Source: Yoonia ponticola (GTDB lineage: Bacteria; Pseudomonadota; Alphaproteobacteria; Rhodobacterales; Rhodobacteraceae). Taken from it: DNA of 64,000 nt. The DNA lies in assembly GCF_014199395.1 (NCBI RefSeq), contig NZ_JACIJM010000006.1, positions 1 to 64,000 of the forward strand. Direction: 5' to 3'. Positions 1,422 through 5,970 of the stretch are shown here, piece after piece. Made by a program: the position numbers and the translations under genes. The notes under the pieces are model-generated. The model ran no database searches. It was not told the origin of the DNA and saw nothing but the letters and a program-made list of their open reading frames with translations. How positions within the stretch are numbered: position 1 is the stretch's first letter; the number at the start of each line of letters is the position of its first letter.

Positions 1422-1481
1422 TGAGCTGCTGCCGGTTTCGTGGACACCGAGATAAGGTGTTTATGAGATTGGAGATCAGCG

Positions 1482-1754
1482 ATGACGAGAAGAGTTTACA
1501 GCTGAGAATATAAACGCGAGGCGGCACAGCTTGTGACGGCTCGCGGAGTGAGTGTCGCACAAGCGGCCAAAGATCTGGATGTGCATGCAACCGTGCTGCG
1601 CCGATGGGTGCGTGAGTTTGGATCAAACGGGCCAAACGCCTTCCCAGGCAACGGTCAGCTGAAACCAGATGACGAAGAGCTTCGCAGCCTGAGACGTGAG
1701 GTCGCAAAGCTGAAAGCGGAGCGTGACATATTAAAAAAGGCCGCCGCCCGCTGA
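1482..1754 (+). pseudogene. IS3 OrfA (transposase subunit A), interrupted
   Basis: ATG at 1482 begins MTRRVYS, then a TGA at 1503-1505 interrupts the frame where relatives have Arg (one C-to-T change would explain it). After the stop the frame continues with EYKREAAQL and a helix-turn-helix (VAQAAKDLDVHATVLRRWV), then a leucine-zipper-like stretch ending ERDILKKAAA. The true C terminus, TFARDHL followed by TAATG, is displaced into another frame by the palindromic insertion at 1753-1785. The A-rich run at 1731-1737 resembles the slippery site that many IS3 elements use to make the OrfAB fusion. Two lesions make a functional OrfA unlikely. Confidence 0.75.
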
Positions 1755-1785
1755 CCGGCAGCACATGCTTGCATGTGTGAGAGGG
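1753..1785 (+). repeat. Palindromic mini-insertion, copy A, inside the 3' end of OrfA
   Basis: The segment reads GACCGGCAGCACATGC-TT-GCATGTGTGAGAGGG, with a perfect 7-bp stem (1762-1768 with 1771-1777) and a 2-nt loop. Removing about 37 bp here would restore a normal OrfA C terminus (KKAAA joined to TFARDHL) and the TAATG overlap with OrfB, so it looks like an insertion into the IS. A near-identical sequence lies at 2823-2856 in the other IS, in the same orientation relative to transposase transcription. Confidence 0.7.
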
Positions 1786-1808
1786 ACCTTCGCCAGGGAC
1801 CATCTGTA

Positions 1809-2666
1809 ATGTTCGGGTTTGTTGCGAAGCACCGAGGGGTTTGGCCAGTGAGTTGGATGTGTGATGCGCTCGGTGTGTCACGAAGTGGGTTCCATGCGTG
1901 GCTGACGAGACCGCGCAGCGCCCGTGCGTTGCAAGACGAACTGCTTGGCGCCGCTATCAGGGCGAGCTTCGTGCGATCTGATCGGACCTATGGCGCGCGC
2001 CGCGTTTGGCATGACGTCCTTGCTGAGGGCTTTGAATGTGGTCTGCATGGCATTGAACGGTTGATGCAAATGAATGCCCTCAGGGCGCGTCCGCGCCGCC
2101 GTCAGCTCCCAAAGGATGTGGGCGAGCGATCCAGTATTGCGCCAAACGTGCTTGAACGTGAGTTCAAAGCAGAGGGCCCAAACCAAAAATGGGTCGCCGA
2201 CTTCACTTATATCTGGACCGCCGAAGGTTGGCTTTACGTTGCTGTGGTCATTGATCTGTTCTCGCGTCGCATCGTCGGCTGGTCGATGAAAGATGCCATG
2301 ACAGGGCAGATGGTTACTGATGCCCTGATGATGGCGATCTGGCGCAGAGGGCGACCAAAGGAACTGCTGCATCACTCGGATCAGGGTAGCCAATATACCA
2401 GTGAACCGTTCCAGAGGCTAATGGCGGACAATGGCGTCACCTGCTCGATGAGCCGGTCGGGCAATGTCTGGGACAACGCTGCAGCGGAAAGCTTCTTCTC
2501 ATCGCTCAAAATCGAACGTGTGAAGCGCAAAGTCTACCGGACCCGTGATCAAGCCCGTGCGGATGTGTTCGATTACATCGAGCGTTTCTACAATCCGACA
2601 CGTCGTCACTCGACCATAGGATATTTAAGCCCTATGCAATACGAGGAGAGAGCGATGAAAGCTTAA
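1809..2666 (+). CDS. IS3-family transposase OrfB (DDE integrase core)
   Basis: I chose ATG 1809, where the ancestral TAATG junction with OrfA lies. An upstream in-frame ATG at 1773 falls inside the palindromic insertion. The 285-residue protein has the N-terminal HTH_21-type region (GFVAKHRGVWPVSWMCDALG), then the integrase core with the three acidic residues in ADFTYI, HSDQGSQYTS and NAAAESFFSSLK, and the IS3 signature ending FYNPTRRHSTIGYLSPMQYE. The catalytic set looks complete, but in IS3 elements activity needs the OrfAB frameshift fusion, and OrfA is broken here. The protein by itself may be made but is unlikely to transpose the element. Confidence 0.85.
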   Translation: MFGFVAKHRGVWPVSWMCDALGVSRSGFHAWLTRPRSARALQDELLGAAIRASFVRSDRTYGARRVWHDVLAEGFECGLHGIERLMQMNALRARPRRRQLPKDVGERSSIAPNVLEREFKAEGPNQKWVADFTYIWTAEGWLYVAVVIDLFSRRIVGWSMKDAMTGQMVTDALMMAIWRRGRPKELLHHSDQGSQYTSEPFQRLMADNGVTCSMSRSGNVWDNAAAESFFSSLKIERVKRKVYRTRDQARADVFDYIERFYNPTRRHSTIGYLSPMQYEERAMKA

Positions 2667-2696
2667 GTTGCCGTCCACGAAACCAGCAGCAGCTCA

Positions 2697-3136
2697 CAGA
2701 TACAAAAACCCACGCCGAACAGGGATATAGGTGATGTCACTGCACCAAACATGGTTCGGCCGCGTGATTGGTCGCTTCCGGAGCAGGTATGGATAAATGC
2801 GGTGCTGAGGGTGCTTCTTGCCCCCTCTCACACATGCAGAGCATGTGTTGCCGGTCTATGGGTATTCGGGCTCTTGTAGATGGCCTGTAACCCCATCAAA
2901 CTCAGCAGCCGCCGCACGCGGTGGCGGCCTGCATGGAACCCATTTCTGGGCAAGTAGGCTGTGATCTGTCGGCTTCCGAAGAACGGGTATTTTGTGAACA
3001 CGCGGTCGATCTCATTCATCAGTTCCAACGTCTCTGCGTTCACGCCCACTGGGGCATAATACAGGGATGACCGGCTGATCTTCAGCAGCTTACACTGCCT
3101 GGTCAAACTCATGTCCGTGCAATCCCGATTGATCAT
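2697..3136 (-). pseudogene. IS3 OrfB transposase fragment, disrupted by a palindromic insertion
   Basis: From ATG 3136 the frame gives MINRDCTDMSLTRQCKLLK, SRSSLYYAP and FFGSRQITAYL, typical of the N terminus of IS3 OrfB. After YKSPNT it runs into the palindrome at 2823-2856 and stops. Past the insertion, in another frame, the transposase resumes as KKHPQHRIYPYLLR and VWCSDITYIPVRRGFLYL, which includes the first catalytic Asp of the DDE triad. The sequence is then cut at the junction with the other IS, where a TGA is formed. The second and third catalytic residues are absent. Confidence 0.8.
2823..2856 (-). repeat. Palindromic mini-insertion, copy B, inside OrfB of the second IS
   Basis: Read on the minus strand it is GACCGGCAACACATGC-TCT-GCATGTGTGAGAGGG, with a perfect 8-bp stem (2830-2837 with 2841-2848). 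It differs from copy A by one substitution and one loop base. Transposase sequence resumes on the far side in a shifted frame, so it is an insertion and not part of the IS. It has the same orientation relative to the host transposase as copy A. Confidence 0.7.
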
Positions 3137-3170
3137 TGTTTTCGTTCAGACGGGCTCATCGCCTCTCGGG

Positions 3171-3469
3171 TCATTGCTGCGCAATACCCTGTCGGTAATA
3201 CATCAGCCCTTGTGACAAAAAATCATTTTCCACCGCCACCTTGCCGATCTTCGCGTGCAGTTCTTTGACTTCGGCTTCGTTATCCTCAGCCTTCCTGACT
3301 TTGTCGGAAAAAACACCCGTCAGGCCATCAATTGCCTGCCGCTTCCACGTCGTCACCTGCGTTGGATGCACTTTGTGCTTGTAATCTCTTGCGCCGTCTT
3401 GTCTCCACGAAGCGCCTCAAGCGCTACCGTGGCCTTAAACTTATCTGAAAAACTGCGTCTCTTCGTCAT
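3171..3469 (-). pseudogene. IS3 OrfA of the truncated element, frameshifted
   Basis: ATG 3469 starts MTKRRSFSDKFKATVALEAL, the usual N terminus of a large OrfA subfamily. The frame breaks near 3390-3400, where relatives have an Ala-Lys-His-type segment, and continues one frame over as VHPTQVTTWKRQAIDGL to the stop at 3171. A small deletion explains the break. The remaining helix-turn-helix is thus split over two frames and the gene is not expected to work. Confidence 0.75.
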
Positions 3470-3535
3470 TTCTGTATCCTGTCTTCAAGGTTGGATACAT
3501 CTTAGCACGCTGCCCAAATTTGCAGGACCACTTCA

Positions 3536-3832: not shown

Positions 3833-4432
3833 ATGTCAGTCCTGTTTGGGTTATTGTGGCCGTTGGAGCGCATCAACGCGACTTTGCTTGCTATCGGCAA
3901 AGTCATCGCGATTGCAGCGCTCGCCATCATGGTGTGTTTAATCCTAGGTCAAGTTTTCTTTCGTTACATACTCAATGACGCGCCCAATTGGACCGAAGAA
4001 GCCGCGCGTTTTGGCATGCTTTGGATGGCTGGATTGATGGCGCCTTTGGCCTATCGCATGGGCGGTTTTGTCGGGATCGACATGCTTGAACGCGCATTGC
4101 CGCGTGCGCTCTCTGGTCTGTTATCTTTAATCCTAATGTGTCTGACGATGTGGGTTCTGTTCATTGCTTGGGAACGCGGACTTAATAATCACCTCGACAC
4201 GATTTCTGGGAAAGGCTGTTCAGCGTCGTTGCGCTGGCCTTTCGGCATCGAGATCGGGAAATGTGGTGCTAAATTTCAGAACAGGTTTCAATACGCATCG
4301 CTTTGGGTCGGGGTAAATCTGCTTATCTTGGTGAACTTCGAACTTATCATTCGCCAACTTATCATGCTGGCCGGGCAAGGCGACCGTCTGTCGCGCCTGA
4401 CTGCGGACGAAGATATTGCAGGAGCTTCATAA
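3833..4432 (+). CDS. dctQ: TRAP transporter small permease (DctQ family)
   Basis: This 199-residue membrane protein has four hydrophobic segments in the DctQ pattern: residues about 20-45, 65-80, 85-110 and 150-175. The family hallmark FFRYILNDAPNWTEEAARF lies near residues 43-61. In TRAP transporters the small subunit pairs with the large permease to import organic acids or related solutes, driven by a sodium gradient and fed by a periplasmic receptor. A cysteine-containing loop (SGKGCSASL, then GKCGAKFQ, residues about 124-147) precedes the last helix. The gene has a strong Shine-Dalgarno sequence, and its stop overlaps the next start by one base (TAATG). The substrate cannot be told from sequence. 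Confidence 0.85.
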   Translation: MSVLFGLLWPLERINATLLAIGKVIAIAALAIMVCLILGQVFFRYILNDAPNWTEEAARFGMLWMAGLMAPLAYRMGGFVGIDMLERALPRALSGLLSLILMCLTMWVLFIAWERGLNNHLDTISGKGCSASLRWPFGIEIGKCGAKFQNRFQYASLWVGVNLLILVNFELIIRQLIMLAGQGDRLSRLTADEDIAGAS

Positions 4433-5970
4433 TGCTGCTTTGGTTCCTTCCTTTATTTCTCGTTCTCATCATGGTCGGCTTGCCGGTCGTATTTGCATTG
4501 CTGGTTTCGCCCTTCGCGTTAATCATGCTCGAAGGCGACACCCGCAATGTCGTCGCGGGGTTGTACCGTAACTTCTACAACGGAATGGATAGTTTTCCGT
4601 TAATGGCGCTCCCGTTTTTTATGCTTGCTGGCGAGGTCATGAACCGCGGCGGGATCACTGTTCGACTGGTCGAGTTTTCCCAAGCATTCATGGGGCATAT
4701 GCGCGGTGGTCTCGCTCACGTGAACATCCTGTCCTCAATCTTATTCGCAGGCCTGTCTGGGTCTGCGGTCGCTGATACCTCGGCGCTGGGATCAACGCTG
4801 ATCCCTGCGATGGAAAAAAACGGCTATAGCCGCAAGTTTGCCGCCGCGATCACGGCTGCGTCGTCGGTTATTGGGCCGATCATTCCGCCGTCCGGCATCA
4901 TGATTATTTACGCCTACATCATGGGCGAAAGCGTGGCAGCGCTGTTCCTTGCCGGTATCGTTCCCGGCATTTTGGTTGGGGTCGGATTGATGATCATGGT
5001 TCGTCTGATGGCTGACCGCTATGACCTGCCCAAGGCCGAACGGATCGTCCAAAAAGACCAAACCATGACGCCACTTGAGGCTTGGGTCAGTTTTTTCCTT
5101 ATTCGTGTTAACATCGCGGGATTGCTCTACGCGATTTCAGGTCTCGTCACTCAGTTTATCCCACAACAAGTGAACGGCTGGTTAATTTTTCTCATCGGTC
5201 TGCCGATTGCACATGCCATCGCGACTGCGACCAAAGCGCGTGTGAGCCATGATTTTCGTATCGTCTGCAAAAAAGCCATCGCGCCGCTGCAAACGCCGAT
5301 CATCATTCTTGGCGGGATCCTCGTTGGGGTATTCACACCAACCGAAGCCTCTGCGGTTGCGGTCGCCTATGCGCTGATCGTCAGCTTCTTTGTTTTGCGG
5401 TCGATGAACGGTAAAGACCTGATCGAAGTCCTTGCAAAGTCAGCGCTTTCCACCTCGGCGGTCTTGCTTCTCGTAGGGGCGGCTGTGGCCTTTAAAACGG
5501 TCGTCAGCCTATCCTATGCGCCGCAAATCCTGTCTGATTACATCCTGTCACTGTCCGAAAACCCGCTGATCTTGCTGTTTCTGATTAACATCCTGTTATT
5601 CATTGTCGGCATGTTCCTCGATGCTGGGCCCGCGATCATTATCCTTGGGCCGATCTTGGGCCCGATTTTTGTCGACCTCGGTGTTCACCCCGTCCATTTC
5701 GCGATCATTATGTCAGTTAATCTGACCGTCGGGTTGGCGACGCCGCCTATGGGGCTTGTGTTATTCGTGGCTTCGACAGTGTCCGGCGAAAAGGTTGAAA
5801 CCATCGCCAAAGCAATCTTGCCATTTCTTGCGGTCGAAGTTCTCGTGATTTTCCTCATCACATATATTCCGGCGATTTCGATGACCGTGCCGTATCTTTC
5901 TGGCTTTTTGGGTTGCGGCCCAGAGGTCGGTTTCTCTGCGTGTATCAGCCCTGTGCCGGTACCAAACTGA
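4432..5970 (+). CDS. dctM: TRAP transporter large permease (DctM family)
   Basis: I chose ATG 4432, one base into the dctQ stop. The longer in-frame start at 4303 lies inside dctQ and adds hydrophilic sequence. The 512-residue product is highly hydrophobic with about a dozen transmembrane spans. It carries DctM signatures: FPLMALPFFMLAGEVMNRG (residues about 52-70), LSGSAVADTSALGS and the AASSVIGPIIPPSGIMI loop. The second half holds GVFTPTEASAVAVAYAL and NLTVGLATPPMGLVLFV. It forms the ion-coupled transport channel. The C-terminal tail after the last helix (GCGPEVGFSACISPVP) is longer than usual for the family. A 22-bp gap separates it from dctP. Confidence 0.88.
   Translation: MLLWFLPLFLVLIMVGLPVVFALLVSPFALIMLEGDTRNVVAGLYRNFYNGMDSFPLMALPFFMLAGEVMNRGGITVRLVEFSQAFMGHMRGGLAHVNILSSILFAGLSGSAVADTSALGSTLIPAMEKNGYSRKFAAAITAASSVIGPIIPPSGIMIIYAYIMGESVAALFLAGIVPGILVGVGLMIMVRLMADRYDLPKAERIVQKDQTMTPLEAWVSFFLIRVNIAGLLYAISGLVTQFIPQQVNGWLIFLIGLPIAHAIATATKARVSHDFRIVCKKAIAPLQTPIIILGGILVGVFTPTEASAVAVAYALIVSFFVLRSMNGKDLIEVLAKSALSTSAVLLLVGAAVAFKTVVSLSYAPQILSDYILSLSENPLILLFLINILLFIVGMFLDAGPAIIILGPILGPIFVDLGVHPVHFAIIMSVNLTVGLATPPMGLVLFVASTVSGEKVETIAKAILPFLAVEVLVIFLITYIPAISMTVPYLSGFLGCGPEVGFSACISPVPVPN

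Follow-up and report, generated by a model that had tools for sequence, protein, structure and literature searches.

The hairpins described here belong to a large family of minute DNA hairpins, apparently not described before, which are mostly inserted in transposases of other mobile elements of Rhodobacteraceae-type bacteria and disrupt them. Mobility of the family is very likely. Its members are probably REP-like, very small non-autonomous mobile elements, presumably moved by an enzyme that acts in trans. The repeat unit, C-R-Y-TG(C/A)CCGGCA followed by a stem-loop and by GAGAGG(G), is about 36–45 nt in length; the constant 5' tag is C-R-Y-TGCCCGGCA and the constant 3' tag GAGAGG-G. Constant tags, a paired variable stem, clean insertion, reuse of the same bonds, a strong bias towards insertion sequences (IS) and decay of the host transposases are all demonstrated by comparison between sequences. 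Copies were recognized in the window, i.e., the whole stretch of 64,000 nt of Yoonia ponticola DNA that was analysed.

Hairpins of the window and structure of the family

Element 1 (1749..1785, + strand) is a 37-nt hairpin insert, CGCTGACCGGCA-GCACATGC-TT-GCATGTGT-GAGAGGG, the ends of which are set by five hairpin-free homologues (L145–L149) that are without the 37 nt. The tetranucleotide CGCC (1745..1748, +) lies immediately 5' of it, on the target side. Element 2 (2823..2860, − strand) is a 38-nt insert, CATAGACCGGCA-ACACATGC-TCT-GCATGTGT-GAGAGGG, with a slightly decayed 5' tag; its ends are set by three homologues (L142–L144) without the 38 nt. Element 3 (3161..3200, − strand) is decayed and of another stem subfamily (GGGTATTGC-GCA-GCAATGACCC); 39 nt of it are absent in the same three homologues. 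This third hairpin was not part of an earlier, sequence-only reading of the window.

Host IS 1 (1428..2692, + strand) is an IS3-family, ISAtu4-like element, with rough ends drawn from similar inverted end sequences and outer ends inferred. Its OrfA (1533..1748, +) is interrupted by element 1, located at the end of the gene, and its OrfB lies in an open frame (1785..2663, +) with HTH_21 and rve. Host IS 2 (2697..3476, − strand, rough extent) is a remnant of another IS3-type element, consists of pieces of OrfA and OrfB, and carries element 2 in OrfB and element 3 near the OrfA/OrfB junction. Host IS 1 was probably inserted into host IS 2, because OrfB of the latter stops at the end of the former. 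Further along the window (3833–5970, +) two frames resemble, by eye, the membrane subunits (small and large) of a TRAP transporter.

The sequence-only reading had reported two near-identical palindromes of about 34 bp in the transposases of two different IS3-type elements. The location was borne out. The arms are as reported, 1753–1768 with 1771–1785 on the + strand and 2841–2856 with 2823–2837 on the − strand, with zero mismatches, and neither arm matches elsewhere in the window without mismatch. The copies are real, but the true inserts are longer than 34 bp, 37 and 38 nt as judged from the hairpin-free homologues. The stem takes up only 7–8 nt of each arm, the rest being constant tag. The sequence regarded as constant belongs to one subfamily; across the family the stem varies and the flanks stay constant. 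The folding energies of elements 1 and 2 alone are unremarkable (z −0.43 and −1.62), and the case therefore rests on comparison.

Pairing of the stem was analysed in 27 distinct elements with 19-nt cores. Of the cells, 97.7% are paired; seven of the eight stem pairs vary on both sides; double changes occupy 33 cells vs 6.0 in shuffles. The covariation score is 0.551 vs 0.195 shuffled (0 of 500 shuffles as high), and covariation is abolished when the partner is slid by 1–3 columns. Covariation is weak within the exact type alone, i.e., the stem type of the window copies. The first stem pair is G-C in 11 elements, G-U in 9, A-U in 6 and other in 1; the second is C-G in 20. Stem subfamilies recur over sites and genomes, like replicating families. 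Reading of 42 of 49 model matches (20 regions) gave a stem that differs from copy to copy between constant flanks, hence the many matches per genome to the exact-type covariance model (5 to 46 in each of 17 genomes at a loose threshold, at which weak matches may be chance).

Under the strict exact-type pattern, the window's own genome has the two window copies only. The pattern is present in 11 of 394 genomes of the host family, with 13 copies (reversed control, 0). A scan of a genome collection yielded 84 exact-type stretches, the listed sources of which belong mostly to Rhodobacteraceae and closely related groups, apart from one member of Rhodobiaceae and a single gammaproteobacterial MAG. 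From 83 exact-type rows, 41 clusters and then 34 distinct sites were obtained, Azospirillum rows and repeated sites being left out. In a class-wide model search, 4 of 385 genomes have the exact type, and one of the four is from another family; a strict scan of viral contigs gave no exact-type match.

The wider family gave 169 distinct matches in 281 sequences (reversed control, 0), these sequences being loci largely selected for carrying such elements. The loose pattern TGCCCGGCAN{15,27}GAGAGGG has at least one match in 129 of the 394 family genomes, with a maximum of 30 per genome; its reversed control has single matches in 11 genomes, and four of 30 loose-pattern loci read were non-palindromic and counted as chance. 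With a slightly looser pattern, 12 matches were obtained in the window's genome (control, 0). One stem type has matches in 77 plasmid records, among which ten genera are named, presumably all Rhodobacterales. At least 120 stretches were returned by a wider-family scan of viral contigs, with a stem of at least 6 bp in 13 of the 82 matches read. The suggestion, made from the window alone, of a mobile miniature palindromic element is thereby supported: empty homologues show that the hairpin does not belong to the IS itself, and its copies are not limited to two, given the 84 exact-type stretches and the loose matches in 129 genomes.

Amplification of the hairpin inside larger repeats was also observed. 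In six Azospirillum loci and L097 (assigned by sequence) it is embedded in a different, larger repeat, the flanks of which are conserved on either side; L016, L017, L058, L076, L079, L087 and L097 share a related core, CCCGGCAGCACATGGC..GCCATGTGCGAGAGGG, which looks amplified within that repeat. L291 and L337–L339 (genome G377) have one stem type and share the flanks of a larger repeat, not IS-like in appearance, the hairpin again being amplified inside its host repeat.

Insertion, proposed mechanism and candidate movers

Of 136 distinct sites, 64 have an empty, ungapped homologue. A homologue was counted as empty when ungapped and at least 78% across the junction; a few of the poorest alignments may be due to chance. 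The target logo of the 64 empty sites is C-(A/G)-T-C|(G/A), weak at −4, with C left of the junction in 51 of 64. Target duplication was not found at any of the 64 empty/filled pairs. From these comparisons, insertion is clean, after C-R-T-C, and without target duplication. The logo is weak and alone cannot account for repeated use of the same bonds. Position +5 of the empty sites is A/T-rich (48 of 64) and is possibly part of the target. Inverted repeats first seen by eye had raised the idea of a hairpin as target; it was rejected, no helix-like excess of pairing being present over 136 sites and many offsets.

The closest filled/empty pairs are an IS3 of Phaeobacter inhibens with two inserts and two Leisingera IS3 genes without them, with identity at 527 of 582 and 503 of 582 aligned bases; the insert-free relatives are annotated as IS3 transposases. 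The base left of one Phaeobacter insert is C vs T in the empty site, and the base right of the other insert is G vs A. Where the empty site has A on the right, G is found in 11 of 18 filled copies; where it has G, a change is found in 4 of 34. This A→G bias of the right junction is a possible signature of the insertion chemistry, and simple strand transfer does not account for it. Pseudosulfitobacter plasmid records, among the matches listed, cover the whole query including the insert and give no new event. No excision or fresh insertion was seen.

Clean insertion after a short target, absence of duplication and a hairpin read by its structure are products of HUH single-strand enzymes. Such insertion features are attributed to these enzymes in PMC8266576. 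Since the features of the present inserts match those products, an HUH-like enzyme acting in trans is tentatively put forward as the most likely mover, though at less than even odds. The enzyme would recognize the tags and the hairpin as single-stranded DNA, would cut after the target tetranucleotide and at the GAGAGG(G) end, and would join the excised strand into a further site of this kind, in the manner of HUH (Y1-type) enzymes with REP sequences and IS200/IS605. A hairpin inside an IS would be copied passively when an intact relative moves the dead IS.

No mobilising gene was found. A RAYT/Y1 enzyme as the general mover is unsupported: Y1_Tnp (PF01797) is present in only 5 of 22 carrier genomes. 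Neither the window's own genome nor Citreicella C3M06, which has the most model matches (46) among the 17 genomes searched, contains it. A search by half-sites in 35 genomes for a larger autonomous parent yielded no lengthened, coding version of the unit, and such a parent was rejected. Of 20 regions at lone half-sites, 18 are the short unit with one half mutated; the lone half-site L169 ends at a contig end, and L176 is without a hairpin.

Insertion from RNA, i.e., reverse transcription of a tag-bearing structured RNA into a nicked C-R-T-C site, would fit the conservation of structure above stem sequence, the absence of target duplication and the variable right junction base, often G for A. 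It is considered quite unlikely. Against it, no source RNA gene was found, the nameable hosts of the exact type are ISs, MITEs or remnants, and Rfam gave 0 matches in five loci and two sub-threshold matches in four others, one of these overlapping the hairpin by a few bases.

Hosts, reuse of bonds and effect on the transposase

Context was sampled from the first locus of each of 30 loose-pattern genomes; removal of four non-palindromic cores left 26 copies, not chosen for their context. Of these, 18 adjoin a match to a transposase or IstB model. Five more are linked to an IS by kinship or by eye: L310 occupies an IS110 site also found in L086 and L044, L300 lies in IS3 and L298 in IS1182 (both by eye), and L301 and L309 are placed, by eye, close to an IS110 end. 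No IS can be named around the hairpin in L291, L294 and L297. All 12 pattern matches of the window's genome are in IS3 genes, the 11 outside the window being judged from translation. The hosts overall are IS3, IS5, IS21 (IstA and IstB), IS66, IS91, IS110, IS481 and IS1182, together with MITE-like repeats recognized by eye (L005, L095, L072, L082). These four repeats have, by eye, AGGACCC-type ends. An apparent RHS-repeat gene remnant (L011/L178, genome G055; by eye) is a rare host that is neither IS nor MITE. Two hairpin loci were compared with their annotation, and no feature is annotated there. The orientation relative to transcription shared by the two window copies, pointed out in the sequence-only reading, holds for those copies and not as a rule, both orientations relative to the host gene being observed elsewhere.

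The IS bias may reflect tolerance with hitchhiking, affinity for transposition intermediates, or directed silencing. It is unlikely that the hairpins, or the cell, hunt ISs through a property common to unrelated ISs (e.g., transposition intermediates), with an enzyme class new to such elements and a heritable IS brake in Rhodobacteraceae as the corollaries. Host-directed silencing, under which a cell system breaks ISs with hairpins and the copies are scars, is improbable. Its case is made by the 18 of 26 copies beside a transposase-model match with five more IS-linked, by the 12 IS3 matches of the window's genome, by one IS3 with four hairpins, and by the more frequent breakage of IS5 with a hairpin (both described below). 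It is countered by the recurrence of stem subfamilies across sites and genomes like replicating families and by L291, L294 and L297, which lie outside any nameable IS; a nuclease, a guide or a source locus did not come to light, and insertion into dispensable DNA with hitchhiking could equally yield the bias.

The same bond is used repeatedly. Two or more hits fall on 67 of the 136 sites, and two or more stems on 33; the 390 hits behind these sites include places counted more than once. At 19 of the 136 sites, which were listed, the stems differ in length or by at least 6 nt. On reading, 14 of the 19 have clearly different stems, and 5 differ only in the loop or in single bases. Up to three clearly different stems occur at one bond. 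For IS5, 50 rows were kept from 86 candidates, after removal of near-duplicates, of short stretches and of six loci that were unrelated or unclear; 20 of the 50 have a hairpin at GATC|TGG or variants. The hairpin-bearing copies are not one clade (p_AU 0.0003; quick tree, some long branches). Parsimony gives nine changes of hairpin state, at least five of them forced by starred branches.

An old insert inherited with its IS, with one hit per site and later alteration of the stem, either through paired mutation or through conversion among hairpins, is distinctly improbable. Related stems with shared loops at some sites (e.g., the GTA loop at FTDEQII), IS5 tag variants that mostly track IS subgroups (by eye) and the 5 of 19 listed sites at which the difference is confined to loop length or single bases are in keeping with inheritance; rejection of a single IS5 clade, three clearly different stems at one bond and close relatives annotated as IS3 transposases without the insert are contrary to it.

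Inserts of 37, 38 or 41 nt cause a frameshift. Among the IS5 rows, the frame is open across the stretch read in 3 of 20 with a hairpin vs 15 of 30 without, and end branches are longer with a hairpin (median 0.25 vs 0.17, one-sided p 0.015); a few rows of both kinds in these comparisons are anchored off the junction. One genome has six copies of an IS3 with four hairpins, 98.6–99.9% identical. Of the 12 coding polymorphisms among them, 11 are nonsynonymous and one is synonymous, and the copies therefore look, from their sequences, like dead passengers. Three of the six have, by eye, 3-bp duplications at the IS ends. This IS3 therefore moved after the hairpins had entered it, apparently with no selection on the protein, and was most likely carried in trans.

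The window's genome has four copies of another IS3 with a hairpin at one shared site. In the first flanking protein segment the pairwise dN is 0.007–0.035 vs dS 0.27–1.09, and the segment is 94–100% identical to the reference segment. These copies run counter to the picture of dead passengers unless insertion is recurrent; they are explained here as separate recent hits on intact lineages, the alternative being working, bypassed genes. At the FTDEQII site of L311, L313, L317 and L320, all of the window's genome, the insert brings GAGAGGGG to 2 bases before an ATG in the OrfA frame; this arrangement is Shine-Dalgarno-like and could restart OrfA.

That the inserts are harmless, with ribosome bypass or loss of the hairpin from RNA keeping the transposase working, is very improbable: the dN and dS of the four same-site copies and the occurrence of hairpin-bearing ISs as near-identical multicopy families would agree with it, but low dN between old lineages is equally expected from recent hits on intact ones, the inserts shift the frame, nonsynonymous changes prevail in the four-hairpin IS3, and IS5 with a hairpin is more often broken and has longer end branches.

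Comparison with known systems

REP-like hairpins are known; none was found described as living mainly in the transposase genes of eight IS families. No description of the present family was found in the literature searched, sequence strings included, most subscription journals lying outside that literature; the papers matched by sequence strings do not, to judge by title, concern bacterial repeats. If confirmed, the family would be a natural system for the study of target choice by gene-less elements, would add a way in which ISs become inactivated, and would mark dead ISs, which often go unnamed in annotation. The variable stem and constant tags define what the enzyme must read, and biochemical capture is therefore possible.

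The small dispersed repeats of cyanobacteria are tiny mobile repeats as well, a likeness of description. IS200/IS605 elements and their miniature derivatives have a short 5' target, no duplication and recognition through hairpins. For IS200/IS605, retention of a short target on the 5' side, no target duplication and hairpin recognition are described in PMC8266576. The present hairpins are similarly without target duplication and have a short conserved target, C-(A/G)-T-C, on the 5' side. Unlike IS200/IS605, they have one central hairpin instead of one per end and no gene, and Y1 (tnpA) is absent from the hairpin unit and from most carriers tested. Like MITEs, they are non-autonomous repeats, moved in trans on the favoured reading; unlike MITEs, they are without terminal inverted repeats of the usual length and without target duplication, and MITE-like repeats are among their hosts. 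A comparison with the palindromic elements that invade genes of Rickettsia, drawn in the sequence-only reading, applies to style only, because those are inserted in frame and translated, whereas the present inserts shift the reading frame.

GTAG REPs are described as 20–40 nt in length, with one hairpin, a short conserved unpaired tag and many stem families; they are thought to be non-autonomous and are served by RAYT (TnpA-REP) transposases (PMC3733652; PMC8266576). The present hairpins resemble the GTAG REP/REPtron system in the paired stem with constant tags and in size, about 36–45 nt. They differ in the absence of a 5' GTAG, in constant tags on both sides, in the presence of PF01797 in only 5 of 22 carriers and not in the window's genome, and in their location, mostly in IS transposase genes, whereas GTAG REPs are mainly extragenic.

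CGTC REPs, among them RPE-4 and RPE-6 of Rickettsia, are according to PMC3733652 small hairpins of Alphaproteobacteria with no known dedicated transposase. In that paper, association with transposase genes is regarded as only fortuitous, and its main text contains neither the word Rhodobacter nor the word Roseobacter. The present hairpins are likewise small, alphaproteobacterial and without a known dedicated transposase. In CGTC REPs, CGTC, TGTC or CCTC is part of the repeat, whereas C-R-T-C here is the target, is present in empty sites and is variable. CGTC REPs have a CCA-like tail and AT pairs at the foot of the stem; the tail here is GAGAGG(G), and a G-C or G-U foot is commonest. The behaviour is thus REP-like, but the tag, transposase and location are not those of GTAG REPs, and the tag and tail are not those of CGTC REPs; the family is therefore regarded as a REP-like variant, new in its tags and in its preference for ISs.
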